Shown here piece by piece: positions 3,644-61,542 of a DNA stretch of 64,000 bases. The position numbers and the translations under genes are program-made. Origin of the DNA: an uncultured Bacteroidota bacterium (GTDB lineage Bacteria; Bacteroidota; Bacteroidia; Chitinophagales; Chitinophagaceae); assembly GCA_903824665.1 (NCBI GenBank), contig CAIJXT010000029.1, positions 1-64,000 on the forward strand. The letters are read 5' to 3'. The stretch's first letter is position 1, and the number at the start of each line of letters is the position of its first letter. The notes below the pieces were generated by a model. That model was not told the DNA's origin and searched no databases. It saw nothing but the letters and a program-made list of their open reading frames with translations.

Positions 3644-3651
3644 TACTTTTG
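3644..3651 (+). promoter_or_regulatory. -7 box 4 nt before the gltX ATG (leaderless candidate)
   Basis: A perfect TACTTTTG ends at 3651 and the ATG begins at 3656, leaving only GGGG between. With usual Bacteroidota spacing, transcription would start at or within a base or two of the ATG. No good -33 TTG is visible at 19-21 nt. Confidence 0.5.
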
Positions 3652-3655
3652 GGGG

Positions 3656-5173
3656 ATGAAAGTAAGAGTAAGATTCGCACCGAGCCCCACAGGCGGCCTG
3701 CACCTGGGCGGCGTAAGAACTGTTTTATTCAATTATTTGTTTGCCCGCGCACATGGCGGCGACTTTATACTGCGCATAGAAGACACGGATCAGGGCAGGT
3801 TTGTGCCCGGCGCCGAGCAATACATAATGGATTGCCTGACATGGTGCGGCCTGGAGCCTGATGAGAGCCCGGTAAAGGGCGGACCACATATGCCGTACCG
3901 GCAGAGTGAGCGCAAGGCAATGTACCAGCAATATGCCCAACAGCTGGTGGCTGCCGGATATGCCTATTACGCGTTTGACACCCCGGAAGAAATAGAAACC
4001 ATGCGCACGGCGCACCGTAAGGATGAGCACAGCCATGCCCAGTATGACGGCAACACGCGCATGCATATGAAGAACTCGCTGACACTGCCAGAAGCAACGG
4101 TGCAGCAACTGCTGGCTGACAAAACGCCCTATGTAGTGCGGATAAAGGTGCCTGCGAATACGACAGTAACACTGAACGATATGATACGCGGCGAGGTGTC
4201 GTTTGACAGCTCGCTGGTAGACGATAAGGTGCTGCTGAAAGCCGATGGTATGCCCACGTACCACCTGGCGGTAGTGGTGGATGACTACCTGATGCAGATA
4301 ACGCACGCCTTCAGAGGGGAGGAGTGGCTGCCCAGCGCACCGGTGCATGTGCTGCTGTGGGAGTACCTGGGCTGGAAGGACCAAATGCCGCAGTGGGCGC
4401 ACCTGCCACTGATACTGAAACCCGATGGCAATGGCAAGCTGAGCAAGCGCGATGGCGACCGGCTGGGTTTCCCGGTGTTTGCGATGAACTGGACTGACCC
4501 GAAAACAAATGAAGTAACTGCAGGATTCAGGGAGATAGGGTTTATGCCCGAAGCTTTTGTGAATATGCTGGCCATGCTGGGCTGGAATGATGGTACAGGG
4601 CAGGAAGTGTTTTCGCTAAAGGAGCTGACAGAAAAATTTGCAATAGAGCGCATACACAAGGGTGGTGCGAAGTTTGACTACGAGAAAGCAAAGTGGTTTA
4701 ACCACCAGCATATACAACGTACTGACGACCAGACACTGGCGCGGCTGGCGCGCCCCTTTATGGAGGCTAAAGGCATAACCGCCGATGAGGCACTGCTGGT
4801 GAAAGTGGCAGGACTAATAAAAGACCGCTGCACGCTACTGCCCGATTTCTATACACAGGGACACTTCTTCTTTGCTACCCCCGAGGTAACAGAAATGGCG
4901 GCAATCACCGAAAAATGGAATGCGCAGAAGCAGGCGTTTTTTGAAGGTTGGAGTGCGGCACTGGCTACCCAGGCCAATGCTGATGCGGCTGCACTTGAAG
5001 CCTCGTTTAACGAGCATGTGCAACAGCACGGCCTGAAGAAGGGCGATGTGATGCTGCCGCTGCGCATCATGCTGGTGGGTGGCAAGTATGGACCGGGTGT
5101 GTTTGCGATAGCAGAGCTGATAGGCATCACGGAAACAATAAACAGAATAACCGCAGTATTGCGTAGCATATAG
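3656..5173 (+). CDS. gltX: Glutamate--tRNA ligase
   Basis: This class I synthetase charges tRNA-Glu with glutamate using ATP. The 505-aa length is normal for bacterial GltX. The N-terminus RFAPSPTGGLHLGG contains the HIGH-type motif (HLGG). The KMSKS-type motif is KLSKRDG near residues 260-266. Between them is the discriminating region with WAHLPLILKPDGNGKLSK. The C-terminal part is the helical anticodon-binding domain. A frame open from 3629 would add nine residues, but conserved GltX proteins begin at this Met. It follows dciA by 67 nt, with its own -7 box directly before the ATG. It ends 109 nt before the convergent receptor gene, with a hairpin terminator between. Confidence 0.97.
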   Translation: MKVRVRFAPSPTGGLHLGGVRTVLFNYLFARAHGGDFILRIEDTDQGRFVPGAEQYIMDCLTWCGLEPDESPVKGGPHMPYRQSERKAMYQQYAQQLVAAGYAYYAFDTPEEIETMRTAHRKDEHSHAQYDGNTRMHMKNSLTLPEATVQQLLADKTPYVVRIKVPANTTVTLNDMIRGEVSFDSSLVDDKVLLKADGMPTYHLAVVVDDYLMQITHAFRGEEWLPSAPVHVLLWEYLGWKDQMPQWAHLPLILKPDGNGKLSKRDGDRLGFPVFAMNWTDPKTNEVTAGFREIGFMPEAFVNMLAMLGWNDGTGQEVFSLKELTEKFAIERIHKGGAKFDYEKAKWFNHQHIQRTDDQTLARLARPFMEAKGITADEALLVKVAGLIKDRCTLLPDFYTQGHFFFATPEVTEMAAITEKWNAQKQAFFEGWSAALATQANADAAALEASFNEHVQQHGLKKGDVMLPLRIMLVGGKYGPGVFAIAELIGITETINRITAVLRSI

Positions 5174-5282: not shown

Positions 5283-7748
5283 CTAACCGGTTTGGCTGCC
5301 GGCGCGGCGTTTCTCATCCTCGGCCCCGCCTCTGTGGCGCAGGGATGGTGGCAATGTGCGCTTGCCAAAGCGATAAGTAAATGATACGGATACCTGCCGG
5401 GTGTCGCGGCGGGCAACGAATGACTCGCGGTAGTCGGTGTACTCTGAAATGGCCCTGGGGTAGCCGCGCCAGAAAATATCTGTGGCATTGATGCGGGCTG
5501 TGGCGCGCTTGTCGAGGAAGTTTTTCTGCAGACCCAGGTTGAGCATCCATGTAGGCCTTAACAGCATGTAGCCATATAATTGTGGTGCCTGGTAAAACCC
5601 ACTGACCTCTGCAGACCAATTGTCTGGCAGTATGAAGCTGTTGCTGCTGTTGGCATCGAAGGTGACCCTGCCATCATTGAGCGGTGTACCTGCAATGTTG
5701 CCGGTATACTGTGCATAGTATACGTTTACATTGGTAGAATTGGTCCACCACTTACTGAATCTGAACTGATAAGATCCATTGATGCCGTAGTACGACATCC
5801 CTGCCAGGTTTTTCTGTGTTTGTATGGTTACCTTTTTCTCGGTGAGGCTGGGTTGTATCACCTCGGTGATGGGTGCTGTAGTGCGGGTGAAATTGATATT
5901 GGTGATGAACTTCTGTTTGTAGGTATAAGACAGCTCTGCAGCATAGGACAGCGCAGGCATGAGGTAAGGGTCTCCGGTTTTGTAGGTGGTAGGATCGAGG
6001 TAGTAGGTAGAGGGGTTGAGCTGCTCATAGTTGGGCCGCTCTATGCGCCGGCTGAGGGTAATGCCCAGATCGTTGGCTTTGTCTAAGTGGCGCTGCACGG
6101 CAAAGCTTGGGAATAGCTGTGTGTAGTTTCGTGTAAAAGATGAGTCGCCGGTAGGCCATGTAGCATCCCCACTTGCCAGGGTCTGCTCTGCCCGCAAGCC
6201 CAGCTGGGCACTCCACTTTTCCCAATCCTTGCTGACATTGATGTAAGCCGCATTGATGTTCTCGCGGTATACGAAGTGATTGGTGCGGAGGCTATCGGGT
6301 GTGCGCTTTCCGCCAGCTGTGTTGTAAAACAGCAGGTCGTGGTCGGCGGTGACATAGCTGGTTTTGGCGCCGGCTTCCAGTTTGGCACCGTTGCTCAGTG
6401 GCACTGCGTAGTCGGCCTTTAGTGAGCGGATCTGTGTAAGCCCATCCAGATCGCCATACAGCATTACCGGCGCTATGCCTGATGGTACAGAACTGCCGTC
6501 GGACGAGTCTTTGAAGTATCTGGTTGTGAACTCCTGCCAGCCGCTGCCGGGATAGGTGGCAAAATCGGCATCGAACGTGAGCACCTTGCCGCTGCTGTCG
6601 AATGTATGGCGCAGGTTGAAGTTGGCTGTAAGATTACTCCATGAGTTGGGCGACTTGTTGTCTGTAATAAAGTGGGATAGTGATGGGGTGGCTGCCGGGT
6701 CTGTAACGACAGAATAATTGTAGCCAGTGCGCAGGAACGTGGTGGATTCACCATTGAATGTGACGCCCACATTGGTTTTCCGGGAGAGGGTATAGTCTAC
6801 ACCTATACCACCCAGGTCGGTAACGATATCGTAGAAGTAGTGGTTGCTCTGATCGTAGGCACCGGTAAAAACACCTTTGTCGTAGAACTTACGATCGAGT
6901 GTAAGGTGATTGAAACCCTCGCGATCGGAGTGGTTGTAATTGGCAAACACATTGAACTTTTTGTTGCGGTAGTTCATGTTGAAGCCGCCATTAGCCTTTC
7001 CGTATATGCCCTGGGCATAGGTTGCGTTTAGGCTGCCATTGAGTCCGGCTTTTTTGTCTTTCTTCAGCCTGATGTTAATGATGCCACCGGTGCCGGCGGC
7101 ATCATATTTTGCCGAGGGGTTGGAGATCAGCTCTATGGTCTCCACATTGTTTGAAGGCATGCTCTTGAGCATATTGGCGAGGTCCTGACCAGAGATGGGC
7201 TGAATCTTGCCGTTGATCATGACGGTCACGCCCGGCTTGCCCTTTAGCTTTATGTTGTCGTTGTTGTCGACGGTGACACCCGGCGACCGGGCCAGTACCT
7301 CCAGTGCTGTGCTGCCTGCGCTTACTATACTGCTTTCCACATTCACCACTACCTTGTCGGCATGTGTTTCTATAAATGGTTTCTGGGCGCGGATGGCCAC
7401 CTCGCTGAGTTCTGTGCTCTTTTGCCCGAGGGTTATGGCGGGCAAATTGTAGTTGGCGGTACCTACTGTGAAGGACGGAGAGATGAAAGGTTGATAACCC
7501 AGCATATTGACCTTTACAATAAAATCTCCATCGGCAGAGGGGGTGAGCAGGAACTCACCCTTTTCGTCTGTGAGTTCTGTTCTGACGAGTGTGGAATCTG
7601 CGGCACGGAGCAGCAGTACACTGGCCAGGGAAACCGGTTTTCCTAGATCGTCTGCAATGCGGCCGGATATAGCACCGGTGCGGGCTACGGCTGATTGCGC
7701 CAGGGGTAATACAAGCAACAGAAAGAAGAGGAAGGATCGAGTGGACAT
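5283..7748 (-). CDS. Outer-membrane beta-barrel (TonB-receptor-like) protein
   Basis: The 821-aa protein has a signal peptide, then a carboxypeptidase-like regulatory (CarbopepD_reg) fold at about 25-110 (GAISGRIADDLGKPVSLASV). A plug-like domain at about 125-230 (IKLKGKPGVTVMINGKIQPISGQDL, AGTGGIINIRLKK) follows, and then a long C-terminal outer-membrane barrel. This is the layout of the OMP_b-brl_3 branch of TonB-dependent receptors, which import or sense large substrates; the ligand is unknown. No SusD homologue is adjacent. The frame is open to 7793, but a perfect -7 box lies inside that extension, and the Met at 7748 gives a clean signal peptide. The start at 7748 is therefore chosen. 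Confidence 0.88.
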   Translation of the reverse strand: MSTRSFLFFLLLVLPLAQSAVARTGAISGRIADDLGKPVSLASVLLLRAADSTLVRTELTDEKGEFLLTPSADGDFIVKVNMLGYQPFISPSFTVGTANYNLPAITLGQKSTELSEVAIRAQKPFIETHADKVVVNVESSIVSAGSTALEVLARSPGVTVDNNDNIKLKGKPGVTVMINGKIQPISGQDLANMLKSMPSNNVETIELISNPSAKYDAAGTGGIINIRLKKDKKAGLNGSLNATYAQGIYGKANGGFNMNYRNKKFNVFANYNHSDREGFNHLTLDRKFYDKGVFTGAYDQSNHYFYDIVTDLGGIGVDYTLSRKTNVGVTFNGESTTFLRTGYNYSVVTDPAATPSLSHFITDNKSPNSWSNLTANFNLRHTFDSSGKVLTFDADFATYPGSGWQEFTTRYFKDSSDGSSVPSGIAPVMLYGDLDGLTQIRSLKADYAVPLSNGAKLEAGAKTSYVTADHDLLFYNTAGGKRTPDSLRTNHFVYRENINAAYINVSKDWEKWSAQLGLRAEQTLASGDATWPTGDSSFTRNYTQLFPSFAVQRHLDKANDLGITLSRRIERPNYEQLNPSTYYLDPTTYKTGDPYLMPALSYAAELSYTYKQKFITNINFTRTTAPITEVIQPSLTEKKVTIQTQKNLAGMSYYGINGSYQFRFSKWWTNSTNVNVYYAQYTGNIAGTPLNDGRVTFDANSSNSFILPDNWSAEVSGFYQAPQLYGYMLLRPTWMLNLGLQKNFLDKRATARINATDIFWRGYPRAISEYTDYRESFVARRDTRQVSVSFTYRFGKRTLPPSLRHRGGAEDEKRRAGSQTG

Positions 7749-20540: not shown

Positions 20541-21956
20541 CTAAGGTAGAGCAGGGTCTATCTGGTAGCCAGTAGTTGTGTCTGGTAGCCGGAAGTATTT
20601 TGGGTTCAGGCCTTTGTAGGGAACTACATCCCAGTTCACAATCAGGTCTTTGTATTTCTCTGCTGCCCATGCTCTGTGAGCTGGCGAGTCATCAATTATG
20701 ATCGAAGCTGAATAGCCGTTTTCCAATGTAGAAAGGAGCCAGAACTCATAGGGAGAGCCCCATAACATTTGGAGGCGGGCGGCGCCGGCCGTTTTGCTGC
20801 TTACTATCATCTTTTTGTGACCGTACTGTTGCAGAAAACGCCGTTCCCAGTTGACGCGCGCTGTATAGACCGAGTGGCTTGAGTATATCCTCCACCCTCC
20901 GGAGATCATGATCAGTACTGCCATGGCCGCAGCATATTGTGGACGCCAGGCTGGCAATAGGTCGAACAGCAGCGGAAGGGCAAGGAATAAGCCGAGAGGC
21001 AGATACAACACCTCTATGTAGAAAGCCGGTGTTTTGTCGGTCGGGTAGGATGTATTGACGAGCAAAAGATAACCAAGCACCATGCCCGAAAAGAAAAATG
21101 CCATTTTGTACTGCCTATCCTTCACATATTTTGCCAGTGTCAGGATGAATACTATTGCAATCCAGTAGTACTTGGTGGCAATTGTTGCCAGAAAGTTCCG
21201 GTTGGCATAGGTGTCAAAATATTTCGGGAACAGCCTGATGAAATTCTTTATTCCGCTAAGCGAGTGTCGCTCATACTGATCTCGGAAAAATAGCGTTTTT
21301 ACCAACAATGAAAATGCAAAAACAAGCCCTACTGAAAACATCAGTTTTCTGTCGATATGGCTATCATTCCGGAGTATGATAAAGCCTGCAATAAAAAGGA
21401 AACAAAGCGCCATAAGCGGATGAAAGAATGCTATTGTCACAACTAAGGCGGTCGAGATTAGCATCTCCATTTTCCCCAAGTCTGTAGGTTTTTTATTCCA
21501 GAGTGTTGCCAGAAGTACCATTGTCAATGCTATAGCCTGTGGTGCCTGCGAGGTGGGCCAATAGAAAGAGTCTGATACGAACAGAATGTTGACCATGAGT
21601 ATGACAAGTGCCAGCCCATATTGTCGTAAGTATGTGCCACAAATCAGATAGCAAGCAAAGTATACAAGTACAAAGCCAACTGAGTAGAGCTTACAGATAG
21701 TGTGCAGCGGCCGACCTAAAGCATATGCGGCCAATGGCAGTATGCGCGAAAGCCCGTCGCCAAAGCGTGAAATCTGTATGGCAAAATTGCCGTCTTTGGC
21801 AATATGAAAAACAGTAAAGGCAGTGTCCAGAAAAACGATACGTTCAACGAAGAATACTGCTGCTATAATGCACAGAAAAATATAGACGAACAAGCCTGCA
21901 TAATAGAGCTTTCGGTACAGGAGCGAAATTTGATGGGGCTGAAATACCTGCTGCAT
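20541..21956 (-). CDS. Polytopic membrane protein of unknown function
   Basis: This 471-aa inner-membrane protein has about 11-12 predicted helices (for example 20-40, 95-115, 118-135, 165-200, 245-262 and 335-355) and a soluble C-terminal tail of about 100 residues. The layout resembles GT-C-type or EpsG-like membrane glycosyltransferase relatives, but I see no catalytic motif (such as a clear first-loop DxD), so this is only a possibility. A perfect -7 box lies 5 nt before the ATG, suggesting a leaderless or near-leaderless transcript. A similar-sized membrane protein is encoded at 57809-59047. Confidence 0.8.
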   Translation of the reverse strand: MQQVFQPHQISLLYRKLYYAGLFVYIFLCIIAAVFFVERIVFLDTAFTVFHIAKDGNFAIQISRFGDGLSRILPLAAYALGRPLHTICKLYSVGFVLVYFACYLICGTYLRQYGLALVILMVNILFVSDSFYWPTSQAPQAIALTMVLLATLWNKKPTDLGKMEMLISTALVVTIAFFHPLMALCFLFIAGFIILRNDSHIDRKLMFSVGLVFAFSLLVKTLFFRDQYERHSLSGIKNFIRLFPKYFDTYANRNFLATIATKYYWIAIVFILTLAKYVKDRQYKMAFFFSGMVLGYLLLVNTSYPTDKTPAFYIEVLYLPLGLFLALPLLFDLLPAWRPQYAAAMAVLIMISGGWRIYSSHSVYTARVNWERRFLQQYGHKKMIVSSKTAGAARLQMLWGSPYEFWLLSTLENGYSASIIIDDSPAHRAWAAEKYKDLIVNWDVVPYKGLNPKYFRLPDTTTGYQIDPALP

Positions 21957-21961
21957 CGATT

Positions 21962-21969
21962 CAAAGGTA
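21962..21969 (-). promoter_or_regulatory. -7 box 5 nt before the ATG of the membrane protein gene
   Basis: The minus-strand sequence is TACCTTTG, a perfect TAnnTTTG, and the gap to the ATG at 21956 is 5 nt. A leaderless or near-leaderless start is expected. Confidence 0.5.
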
Positions 21970-37577: not shown

Positions 37578-37970
37578 TCACGACGACAAAATCTTCATCA
37601 AGTGCAGTATGTTGGAATTATGCTGCCCTTTGGAATCATTCAGCTCTTTGAATTTTTCCACATCTGATAGCTTTCCAGGATCAATAGACTTAAAACCCAT
37701 CGACCAATCTTCGAAGTGCCGGCTACTGGTCATGCCGTCCTTGAGGATTTGGAAGTATTTGTGGCGGGAATCATTTTCGATTGCCACAGCCAATTGTTTC
37801 ACAGTCGATTCGGCCCCTTCGATCAGTTGTATAAATTTTCCATCAAAATAGTAGAGCATGCCGGTTATGGCAAGTTTCTGATTATTGTCTCTTGCATGAA
37901 CGAGAAGCTCTTTCAGAAGATCATCGTTAAATTCGATAGTTGCATAACTACTATAGATCAGATAATACAT
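37578..37970 (-). CDS. BLUF blue-light sensor
   Basis: This 130-aa stand-alone BLUF protein binds FAD and senses blue light. Visible conserved residues are Tyr in LIYSS (residue 6), the Asn in ARDNNQKLAITGML (about 27-40), and the key Gln in FIQLIEG (about 48-54). RHKYFQILKDGMTSSRHFEDWSMGF (about 72-96) follows, where the Trp/Met region tunes the flavin. No output domain is fused, so it must act through a partner. A longer frame to 38033 uses TTG, but the BLUF fold begins at this Met, and a perfect -7 box ends 4 nt upstream. Confidence 0.92.
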   Translation of the reverse strand: MYYLIYSSYATIEFNDDLLKELLVHARDNNQKLAITGMLYYFDGKFIQLIEGAESTVKQLAVAIENDSRHKYFQILKDGMTSSRHFEDWSMGFKSIDPGKLSDVEKFKELNDSKGQHNSNILHLMKILSS

Positions 37971-37974
37971 ACTA

Positions 37975-37982
37975 CAAAGGTA
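37975..37982 (-). promoter_or_regulatory. -7 box 4 nt before the BLUF ATG (leaderless candidate)
   Basis: The minus-strand sequence TACCTTTG ends 4 nt (TAGT) before the ATG at 37970. The expected transcript start is at or next to the ATG. Confidence 0.55.
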
Positions 37983-53125: not shown

Positions 53126-53133
53126 TATTTTTG
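53126..53133 (+). promoter_or_regulatory. -7 box 4 nt before the HAD hydrolase ATG (leaderless candidate)
   Basis: TATTTTTG is a perfect TAnnTTTG and ends 4 nt (AGGG) before the ATG at 53138. Confidence 0.5.
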
Positions 53134-53137
53134 AGGG

Positions 53138-53779
53138 ATGATAACGGGTATCAAACATATTATCTTCGACCTGGGTGGGGTGCTGCTGAATATAGACTAC
53201 ATGCTGACGGAAAAGGCGTTTGTAGACGCAGGTGTAAAACACTTTGCACAACTGTACTCCCAAATGCAGCAGAGTGACATCTTTGACCGCTGGGAAACGG
53301 GCCGCATGACGCGGCAGGAGTTTATAAGCACGATGCAGCAGGCGGCAGACACGCCACTGACGGAGGCACAAGTGCTGCACGCGTGGAACGCGATGCTGCT
53401 GGACTTCCCGATACGGCGGCTGCAGATACTGCAACAACTGCGCCTGCACTACGACCTGCTGCTGCTGAGCAATACGAATGAGATACATGAGGAGGTGTTT
53501 AATAATACGCTGATGCAGGCGCATGGGTTCCCCAACATAGGTGTGTTCTTTGACCGGGTGTATATGTCGCACAGGGTGGGGCTGCGCAAGCCTATGCCGG
53601 AGATCTTTGAGCGGGTGCTGGAGGAAAACGGGCTGAAGGCGGCACAAACACTGTTTATAGACGATAGTCCGCAGCATATAGCGGCGGCGAGCGCGCTGGG
53701 CATACAGACGATATACCTGGAAAAGGGTATGACGATAGAAAAAGATGTGTTCAGACCCAAAACACCCACCGACCAATGA
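53138..53779 (+). CDS. HAD-superfamily hydrolase (subfamily IA)
   Basis: The 213-aa cytosolic enzyme has all HAD motifs: nucleophile in IIFDLGGVLLNID (about 8-20), the Ser/Thr motif LLLLSNTNE (about 109-117), the Lys in VGLRKPMPEIF, and the acidic pair FIDDSPQHI (about 175-183). The cap is helical and inserted after the first motif (C1-type). It would dephosphorylate a small metabolite; the YihX-like branch acts on sugar phosphates, but the substrate here is not known. Its stop overlaps the ATG of the alpha/beta hydrolase by 4 nt (ATGA), so the two are co-translated. Confidence 0.93.
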   Translation: MITGIKHIIFDLGGVLLNIDYMLTEKAFVDAGVKHFAQLYSQMQQSDIFDRWETGRMTRQEFISTMQQAADTPLTEAQVLHAWNAMLLDFPIRRLQILQQLRLHYDLLLLSNTNEIHEEVFNNTLMQAHGFPNIGVFFDRVYMSHRVGLRKPMPEIFERVLEENGLKAAQTLFIDDSPQHIAAASALGIQTIYLEKGMTIEKDVFRPKTPTDQ

Positions 53780-59244: not shown

Positions 59245-59252
59245 TAAATTTG
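59245..59252 (+). promoter_or_regulatory. -7 box 4 nt before the helicase ATG (leaderless candidate)
   Basis: TAAATTTG is a perfect TAnnTTTG and ends 4 nt (CCTT) before the ATG at 59257. Confidence 0.55.
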
Positions 59253-59256
59253 CCTT

Positions 59257-61542
59257 ATGCAGAATTATTTAGACGGATTGAATGCACAGCAGCTTGCTGC
59301 GGTGCAGCATATTGATGGGCCCATAATGATAGTAGCAGGTGCAGGCAGTGGCAAGACAAAGGTGCTGACGACGCGAATAGCCCACCTGATGAAAAATGGC
59401 GTTGATCCTTTTAATATTCTGGCGCTCACGTTCACCAACAAGGCTGCTGCCGAAATGAAGGAGCGTGTGGAGAAAGCCCTGGGCAATACTGAGGCCCGCA
59501 ATCTGTATATAGGCACCTTTCACTCCGTGTTTGCCCGCATACTCAGGGCAGAGGCTACCAGACTGGGTTACCCAAGCAACTTTACAATTTACGATACTGA
59601 CGATGCCAAGGGTATCATAAGAAGTATTGTGAAAGATATGAATCTGGACGACAAGCACTACAAGCCTGCATTCATATACAACAGGATATCGGCAGCCAAA
59701 AACGGGCTGGTAGATGCCGCTACTTACCGCAACGATACCCACATACAGCAGGAAGATGCACGCAGCAACCGCCCGCTGCTGGCAGATATTTATGATACTT
59801 ATTCTAAAAGGTGCTTCAAGAACGGAGCAATGGATTTTGATGATCTGCTGTTCAAGATGTATGTACTGCTGACCAACTATCCGGAGGCGCTTGCCAAGTA
59901 TCAGGGCAGGTTCCGGTACATACTCATTGATGAGTATCAGGATACCAATGTGGCGCAGTATGCCATCATAAAAATGCTGGGTGCACGCAATGAGAACATT
60001 TGTGTAGTGGGCGACGATGCGCAGAGTATCTACTCGTTCAGGGGCGCTACTGTACAGAACATATTGCAGTTTCAGGATGACTATGAAGATGCGGTGATTA
60101 TAAAGCTGGAACAGAACTACCGGAGCACACAAACAATACTACAGGTAGCTAACAATGTAATAGGCAACAATGCCAACCAGATACCCAAGGAGTTGTGGAC
60201 AGATAATGCGGAAGGCGAAAAGATACTGCTGGCCCGCACAATGACTGACAATGATGAAGGCAAGTTTGTGGCGGATGCGATAAAGGAGCAGCAAATGCGT
60301 AACCACTATGCCAACAAGGACTTTGCTGTGCTGTACCGTACCAACGCACAGAGCCGCGCTTTTGAAGAGAGCCTGCGCCGGCTGAACATACCCTACAAGC
60401 TGGTAGGTGGCACATCGTTTTACCAGCGCAAAGAGGTGAAAGACTACCTGGCCTATCTGAGGATCATTGTGAACCCGCAGGATGAAGAGAACCTGAAGCG
60501 CATAATCAACTATCCGGCCAGGGGTATTGGCAAGACAACTATAGAACGCGTAATAGTACGTGCAGACCAACTCAATACCACATTCTGGGAAACGATCGCC
60601 AATCCGGAAATAGATGGCCTGAGGTCGTCGCATACAGATGGATTTGTGATGATGATCAACAGCTTCAGGACCATGCTGGAAAAGCAAAATGCTTACGACG
60701 TGGCATTTGCAGTTGGCAAGCATACCGGACTTGTACAGGAACTGTACAACGACAAGACAGTGGAAGGCGTAGCCCGGTACGAGAACGTGCAGGAGTTGCT
60801 GAACTCAATAAAGGAGTTTACAGAAACACCTGATGAAGAAGGAGAGTTGCACGATAAGAGTCTGGGCAGCTATCTGCAACAGATCACTCTGCTTACCGAT
60901 GCCGATCAGGATAAGGGAGTAGATGCCGATGCGGTAAAGCTGATGACCATACATGCTGCGAAGGGTTTGGAGTTTCCGTGTGTTTTTGCGGTGGGGCTGG
61001 AAGAGAATTTGTTTCCCAGCTCTATGAGCCTGTACGATCGTGCTGATCTGGAAGAGGAGAGGAGGCTGTTTTATGTGGCAATAACTCGTGCCAAACACCG
61101 GCTTTGGATTACCTATTCTAACAGCAGGTACCGTTTTGGCAGCTTGGTACAGAATGATCCCAGCAGGTTTATAAAGGAAGTGCCACCCGCATACCTCGAT
61201 ACAACATTTACCGGAACGGGCAACCGGCCGGCGGGCAACACGAGCTCGTTTGGCAGCATGTTCAACCAGTCTTTCGACAACATACCATCGCTGAAGAAGC
61301 TGGCCGATAAGCTGGCTGCACCCAAACCGGCGGCGCATACGCCATCACCCGACTTTGTGCAGGACGATGCCACAGCGATGGATGCGGGTATGCAGGTAGA
61401 GCATCAGAAATTTGGTTTCGGGAAGATCCTTACCGTAGAAGGGGGCACCGCCAACAGGATAGCAAGCATTGACTTTGGGCCGGCACATGGCGTGAAGAAA
61501 ATAATGCTGAATTTCGCGAAGCTGCGGATAGTGAAGTCTTAG
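59257..61542 (+). CDS. uvrD: UvrD/PcrA-type DNA helicase
   Basis: This superfamily 1A 3'-5' helicase acts in nucleotide-excision and mismatch repair and in clearing proteins from DNA. The 761-aa product has the Q-motif LNAQQLAAVQ (about 8-17), Walker A AGAGSGKT (about 27-34) and motif Ia TFTNKAAAEMKERV. It also has Walker B ILIDEYQDTN, motif III VVGDDAQSIYSFRGA, motif IV (LEQNYRST), motif V TIHAAKGLEF and motif VI FYVAITRA. The C-terminal tail (about 700-761) has the FGFGKILTVEG-like motif typical of PcrA/UvrD. The symbol uvrD is by homology; pcrA would be equally fitting. Confidence 0.95.
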   Translation: MQNYLDGLNAQQLAAVQHIDGPIMIVAGAGSGKTKVLTTRIAHLMKNGVDPFNILALTFTNKAAAEMKERVEKALGNTEARNLYIGTFHSVFARILRAEATRLGYPSNFTIYDTDDAKGIIRSIVKDMNLDDKHYKPAFIYNRISAAKNGLVDAATYRNDTHIQQEDARSNRPLLADIYDTYSKRCFKNGAMDFDDLLFKMYVLLTNYPEALAKYQGRFRYILIDEYQDTNVAQYAIIKMLGARNENICVVGDDAQSIYSFRGATVQNILQFQDDYEDAVIIKLEQNYRSTQTILQVANNVIGNNANQIPKELWTDNAEGEKILLARTMTDNDEGKFVADAIKEQQMRNHYANKDFAVLYRTNAQSRAFEESLRRLNIPYKLVGGTSFYQRKEVKDYLAYLRIIVNPQDEENLKRIINYPARGIGKTTIERVIVRADQLNTTFWETIANPEIDGLRSSHTDGFVMMINSFRTMLEKQNAYDVAFAVGKHTGLVQELYNDKTVEGVARYENVQELLNSIKEFTETPDEEGELHDKSLGSYLQQITLLTDADQDKGVDADAVKLMTIHAAKGLEFPCVFAVGLEENLFPSSMSLYDRADLEEERRLFYVAITRAKHRLWITYSNSRYRFGSLVQNDPSRFIKEVPPAYLDTTFTGTGNRPAGNTSSFGSMFNQSFDNIPSLKKLADKLAAPKPAAHTPSPDFVQDDATAMDAGMQVEHQKFGFGKILTVEGGTANRIASIDFGPAHGVKKIMLNFAKLRIVKS

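Follow-up and report, generated by a model that had tools for sequence, protein, structure and literature searches.

In an uncultured member of the Chitinophagaceae (Bacteroidota) and in its relatives, a set of genes carries a promoter -7 box exactly 4 nt before the start codon, and these boxes are very probably primary-sigma promoters that start the mRNA at or near the A of the ATG, the genes being leaderless. Four such genes lie in the window, which is the whole stretch of 64,000 nt that was analysed. The original prediction named gltX, a BLUF gene, a HAD hydrolase gene and uvrD, and a pattern search for TANNTTTG-N4-ATG gave four matches in the window, one at each of them, with all four ATGs being called gene starts. 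A fifth gene, proposed to have its box at 5 nt, was recovered by the gene call at that distance (hereafter the gap, counted from box to start codon). The features are as follows.

3644..3651, plus strand: -7 box TACTTTTG, 4 nt before the gltX ATG (pattern search; conserved in gltX orthologues)
3656..5173, plus strand: gltX, encoding glutamyl-tRNA synthetase, predicted to be leaderless (Pfam tRNA-synt_1c match beginning at residue 2; start set by the conserved N-terminus)
21962..21969, minus strand: -7 box TACCTTTG, 5 nt before the ATG at 21956, near-leaderless candidate (box search, gene call)
37578..37970, minus strand: gene for a BLUF blue-light sensor, predicted to be leaderless (Pfam BLUF match beginning at residue 1)
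37975..37982, minus strand: -7 box TACCTTTG, 4 nt before the BLUF ATG (pattern search)
53126..53133, plus strand: -7 box TATTTTTG, 4 nt before the HAD ATG (pattern search)
53138..53779, plus strand: gene for a HAD hydrolase, predicted to be leaderless (Pfam Hydrolase match beginning at residue 5)
59245..59252, plus strand: -7 box TAAATTTG, 4 nt before the uvrD ATG (pattern search; conserved in uvrD orthologues)
59257..61542, plus strand: uvrD, encoding a helicase, predicted to be leaderless (Pfam UvrD-helicase match beginning at residue 8)

The start codons of the four gap-4 genes are supported by their Pfam matches, which begin at residues 2, 8, 5 and 1 of GltX, UvrD, HAD and BLUF, respectively. 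The gap-5 gene (20541-21956, minus strand) encodes a 471-residue, hydrophobic-looking product with no Pfam match. The proposal that other window genes have the box at 15-23 nt was borne out in part, with gaps of 19 and 22 for those at 7748 and 23345 (both minus strand) and a gap of 31 for the gene at 416 (plus strand). In the window it is the placement of TANNTTTG boxes that is enriched and not their number, with 45 boxes on both strands against 45.4 expected. The expectation for TANNTTTG-N4-ATG in shuffled sequence is 1.15, four or more being reached in 1 of 100 shuffles, and with 43 called genes and 0.015 boxes expected per given gap the probability of at least four is 2e-9 before allowing for approximately 40 possible gaps. 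All four boxes fit TAHHTTTG and the base at -1 is G at two of the four sites. Among the best matches of GltX in the genome collection, a list that may lack the records closest to the genome of the window itself, are records of Taibaiella (82%) and of Flavipsychrobacter (77%), the latter a genus within the Chitinophagaceae.

The sharp peak at 4 nt that had been forecast for the genome as a whole is seen in a sample made up of the window and 40 fixed stretches (864 of 4729 kb, 18%), where it stands apart from a broad hump at approximately 13-27 nt. Gene starts were called from coding potential and start-codon type only, ignoring upstream sequence and hence blind to the motif, with lowered limits over the 864 kb (an earlier gene call covered 464 kb), giving 551 genes, which is fewer than expected with some genes missed; genes starting less than 150 nt from a stretch end were excluded from the histogram. 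Perfect boxes occur before these starts once at gap 3, 18 times at gap 4, four times at gap 5, twice at gap 6, once at gap 7, twice at gap 8 and 4, 4 and 2 times at gaps 9-11, with the hump beyond and a background of 0.57 per gap at 60-141. The 18 boxes at gap 4 compare with a mean of 2.87 over the other gaps from 0 to 30 (Poisson P 2e-9). The placement, already improbable by chance in the window as had been argued, is repeated outside it. In relatives, represented by 80 gltX-flanking loci with gltX itself left out, 950 genes that share synteny and are not independent gave 20 boxes at gap 4, 26 at gaps 5-8, none at gaps 9-11 and a hump at 15-24, the empty valley at 9-11 being absent from the window's own genome. 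Imperfect boxes at gap 4 are also in excess in relatives, numbering 27 where the background is 6.4; the own genome shows little excess, with 9 such boxes over a background of 3.7 and as many as 15 at gap 16.

Internal ATGs served as controls. In-frame ATGs inside genes have TAHHTTTG at gap 4 in 0/4448 cases in the own genome, 0/6837 in the gltX-flanking loci and 0/1862 in G033, a genome of the same family, and out-of-frame ATGs in 2/7997, 1/13124 and 0/2458, respectively. Conversely, 17 of the 23 places in the own sample where a box precedes an ATG by 4 nt are called starts, compared with 0-40% at other gaps up to 30 (4 of 20 at gap 5). Counts of the box-ATG pattern over the whole own genome (103, 94 and 56 at gaps 4, 5 and 10, respectively) blur the spike. 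The whole genome would hold approximately 100 gap-4 genes when the 18 per 864 kb are scaled up, or approximately 75 when the 103 places are multiplied by 17/23.

The gap-4 boxes bear the marks of promoters. The two n positions are free of G in 17 of 18 gap-4 boxes of the own genome and 19 of 20 in relatives, and the fraction of A or T at the -18 place is 0.86 at gap-4 boxes (n 36, own and relatives pooled), 0.94 at gaps 5-8 and 0.81 at gaps 13-30, compared with 0.55 for boxes inside genes (n 224). Part of the -18 contrast reflects composition, since the surroundings of upstream boxes are more AT-rich than those of boxes inside genes (0.63 vs 0.54); boxes 60-140 nt upstream of genes also reach 0.76 at -18. 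A -33 TTG, starting 21-25 nt upstream of the TA, was found at frequencies of 0.11 for gap-4 boxes, 0.16 for gaps 13-30 and 0.07 inside genes, so that this element is hardly enriched at gap-4 boxes and gave no useful signal. Both marks, and likewise a weak -33, are reported for promoters of Flavobacterium johnsoniae (PMC6847099). The gap-4 genes are mostly first genes, since one of 18 follows a gene of the same direction at no more than 40 nt, compared with 71/551 overall; for gap 13-30 genes the figure is 0/63.

For many promoters of F. johnsoniae the -7 box and the start site are described as 4 or 5 nt apart (PMC6847099), and in F. psychrophilum the box is placed at -12 to -5 (PMC9723704). 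At these distances transcription from a gap-4 box would begin at the A of the ATG or at a base next to it, which agrees with the original prediction of a start at that A to within a base. Leadered promoters gave no sharp initiator base, with A at box+5 in only 0.40. With the position, excess, promoter marks and conservation of the boxes observed, the start of transcription and the leaderless translation of the gap-4 genes can be inferred along the following lines. Ordinary primary-sigma promoters (of the sigma-ABfr type) would be placed directly before the start codon, RNA polymerase would begin at, or a few nucleotides from, its A, and the resulting transcripts would be leaderless mRNAs on which ribosomes recognise a 5'-terminal AUG rather than a leader.

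The strongest case of conservation in the class is gltX. From 80 loci, five duplicate upstreams were dropped and two (L100, L110) had no start, leaving 73 distinct upstreams, of which 63 have a perfect box at gaps 4-9 (20, 6, 15, 11, 9 and 2, respectively) and none has its nearest perfect box at 10-40; the other 10 lack a perfect box in the 40 nt before the ATG, and seven of these carry a box with one mismatch at 4-7. The constant gap originally claimed thus stands as a spike at 4 in the genome sample but need not be exactly 4, given the range of 4-9 in gltX orthologues. The gltX start is fixed by homology, since the conserved core RxRFAPSPTG begins at codon 4-7 and a single in-frame ATG precedes it in 58 of the 63 rows. 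The sequences are related and the counts are not independent events, though mean pairwise identity in the 20 gap-4 rows is only 0.29 upstream of the box, compared with 0.85 within it.

Base -1 is a pyrimidine in all 63 boxed gltX upstreams, and in those with gaps of at least 6 purines occupy 13 of 109 positions from box+5 to -1, compared with approximately half of the positions from box+5 to +8 in promoters with gaps of 14-40. With spacers so nearly free of purines, the A of the ATG is likely to be the initiating purine in gltX orthologues with gaps of 6-9 as well. This bears on the alternative that the promoters are real and yield ultra-short leaders of 1-5 nt instead of truly leaderless mRNAs, which would account for the use of gaps 5-9 besides 4 by gltX orthologues and for the purines in the start window of some gap 5-9 boxes at other genes. 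The spike at exactly 4 in both the own and the G033 samples, together with the purine-poor gltX spacers, makes such leaders unlikely.

Further afield, gltX was surveyed in 30 genomes assigned to families labelled f2-f9 and to other classes. Five genomes of the same family gave gaps of 4, 4 and 6, a one-mismatch box at 4 and a gap of 27; in f3 two genomes show gaps of 5 and 7, the third lacking any box in the nearest 60 nt; in f8 one has gap 4 and two have no box; the two f2 genomes have none, and the single f9 genome has a box at 39 with a one-mismatch box at 4. Gaps of 14-21 were found in all seven f5 genomes and of 17-20 in f4 (two genomes), f6 and f7 (one each), while among five genomes of other classes four have no box and one has gap 30. 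It looks, therefore, as though gltX is leadered in some lineages and leaderless in others.

A second alternative is that the box acts at the mRNA level, as a signal for translation approximately 12 nt before the AUG, with transcription starting further upstream, a notion that suits the fixed distance to the ATG and the reported lack of Shine-Dalgarno sequences in Bacteroidota (PMC6847099). It is very improbable, as the same box lies 13-27 nt before other genes and 14-21 nt before gltX itself in all seven f5 genomes surveyed, carries the G-free n positions and AT-rich -18 of a promoter and, at gap 4, stands mostly before first genes.

Boxes directly before the start codon are conserved at uvrD also, where 30 of 40 matching family genomes were read (own included) and 19 of the 30 have a box of the type TAnnTTTG, TAnnTTGY or TAnnTTCG at exactly gap 4 (4, 11 and 4, respectively); four more at gaps 5-7 bring the number at gaps 4-7 to 23, with seven having none. 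For HAD, where 30 of 32 were read (own included), the perfect box at gap 4 is kept in only seven of 30 orthologues. A search of 39 further genomes of the family at E<=1e-10 gave no homologue of BLUF, so that the BLUF gene (37578-37970, minus strand) may have been recently acquired. Separately, in several relatives a gene starting ATGGCA has its box at gap 8 (L056, L059, L066 and L069) or gap 7 (L060 and L067), perhaps representing another conserved near-leaderless group, its orthology being presumed. Although TANNTTTG is by itself no more frequent in the window than expected, a chance coincidence or an artefact of start-codon calling is scarcely credible in the face of a spike in three data sets with a caller blind to upstream sequence, a flat internal-ATG control at gap 4 and conservation in gltX and uvrD with starts fixed by homology.

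The context of the start codon may lend the predicted leaderless genes partial support. In the own genome A at -3 has a frequency of 0.11 in gap-4 genes compared with 0.47 in gap 13-30 genes, with no such drop in the gltX-flanking relatives (0.45 vs 0.44). A pyrimidine (C or T) at -1 occurs in gap-4 genes at 0.67 (own) and 0.80 (relatives), and in gap 13-30 genes at 0.54 and 0.83, so that outside gltX it is no marker of the class. The start codon is ATG in 17 of 18 own gap-4 genes and GTG in one, which is not distinctive (528 of 551 called starts are ATG). The GTG case, an RF-1 domain gene of the own genome (L112:16984-17382, plus strand) with its box at gap 4, is a possible leaderless GTG gene.

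Pfam was run on 14 of the 18 own gap-4 genes, which besides the four in the window comprise MnmG/GidA, NadA, a homocysteine S-methyltransferase domain protein, OMP decarboxylase, a MerR regulator, methylpurine-DNA glycosylase, the RF-1 domain protein with the GTG start, dCTP deaminase, cytidylate kinase and a GSCFA protein. Housekeeping enzymes form the majority of the 14. The same spike is present in G033, where 11 of 264 genes are at gap 4, and there is no clear spike in G103, G095 and G002 from three other families (2/283, 3/287 and 1/273, respectively). Gap-4 boxes with G-free n positions number 26/815 in own and G033 together against 5/843 in the other families (Fisher P 8e-5), a comparison of sampled gene starts that is thin, each outside family being represented by a single genome. 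Among boxes at gaps 3-40, the share at gaps 3-8 after correction for background is 0.28 in the own genome, 0.29 in the gltX flanks, 0.48 in G033 on small numbers (12 vs 16 boxes), 0.16 in each of f4 and f5 and nil in f3. A lineage survey by whole-genome pattern counts (118 genomes at gap 4, 42 each at gaps 5 and 10) was rejected as misleading, because G002 has 110 matches at gap 4 and 65 at gap 10 yet a single gap-4 start in a 400-kb sample. By this measure, which is unreliable without start calls, G027, G059, G101, G105 and G113 of another class (f22) have far more matches at gap 4 than at gap 10 (44/9, 41/12, 50/13, 33/9 and 28/5, respectively).

Leaderless mRNAs have been reported before in Bacteroidota, such that the claim of an undescribed class holds for its extent and conservation, which appear new, and not for the kind. 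Published figures include approximately 3.7% of 5' UTRs below 10 nt in Bacteroides thetaiotaomicron (PMC7366714), 5.5% leaderless in F. psychrophilum (PMC9723704) and, for those F. johnsoniae genes that have a probable promoter, leaders longer than 10 nt in 87% and hence of 10 nt or less in 13% (PMC6847099), the last being close to the shares of 0.16 in f4 and f5. In F. johnsoniae leaderless mRNA was dropped as an explanation because it is a minority there (PMC6847099). A 2011 survey that sought Pribnow-like boxes reported leaderless genes in one of the 37 genomes that it covered from Bacteroidetes/Chlorobi and classed the signals of Bacteroidetes as atypical (PMC3160421), and a gene-start paper assigned the FCB group non-canonical AT-rich ribosome sites (PMC9581028). 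In the main texts of the open-licence literature, no description of a gap-4 class in Chitinophagaceae was found.

The boxes here share with sigma-ABfr promoters (TTTG / TAnnTTTG) the -7 box, the exclusion of G at the n positions and the AT-rich -18 place, and differ in that some genes have the box only approximately 4 nt before their start codon, with -33 hardly visible. As in the minority leaderless mRNAs of B. thetaiotaomicron, F. johnsoniae and F. psychrophilum, the mRNA is predicted to start at or near the AUG, whereas Chitinophagaceae differ in the gap 3-8 share given above (own and G033), the single-base spike and the conserved genes. The SM5 box TAnnTTGY of F. psychrophilum, reported at mapped start sites (PMC9723704), has the same -12 to -5 place as in 11/30 uvrD orthologues, a match in sequence only and counted relative to the ATG; the window's own uvrD carries TAAATTTG and not SM5. 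Leaderless genes of Actinobacteria and Deinococcus-Thermus also have a promoter box directly before the start codon, Pribnow-like and unlike the box here. What appears new in Chitinophagaceae is thus the sharpness, the share and the gene-by-gene conservation of the leaderless class.

The observation is real and reaches beyond the window, and its reading as leaderless expression is correct as far as sequence can tell. A wider joint reading, held with rather less than even confidence, is that leaderless expression in Chitinophagaceae is a major, gene-specific and inherited mode. Its parts are equally tentative: a quarter to a half of the recognisable primary promoters might fire at the start codon, largely for housekeeping enzymes; this set might cover tRNA charging and modification, nucleotide synthesis and DNA repair; conceivably two or more types of promoter (TAnnTTTG and TAnnTTGY among them) are maintained at the start-codon position; and gltX might have switched between leadered and leaderless states within the class (taxon). 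If true, the leaderless gene set could be translated by a separate route. The gap-4 box would be a usable start-codon signal for gene finders, and a family in which predicted leaderless genes look common and conserved would allow initiation by Bacteroidota ribosomes on a bare AUG to be tested directly.
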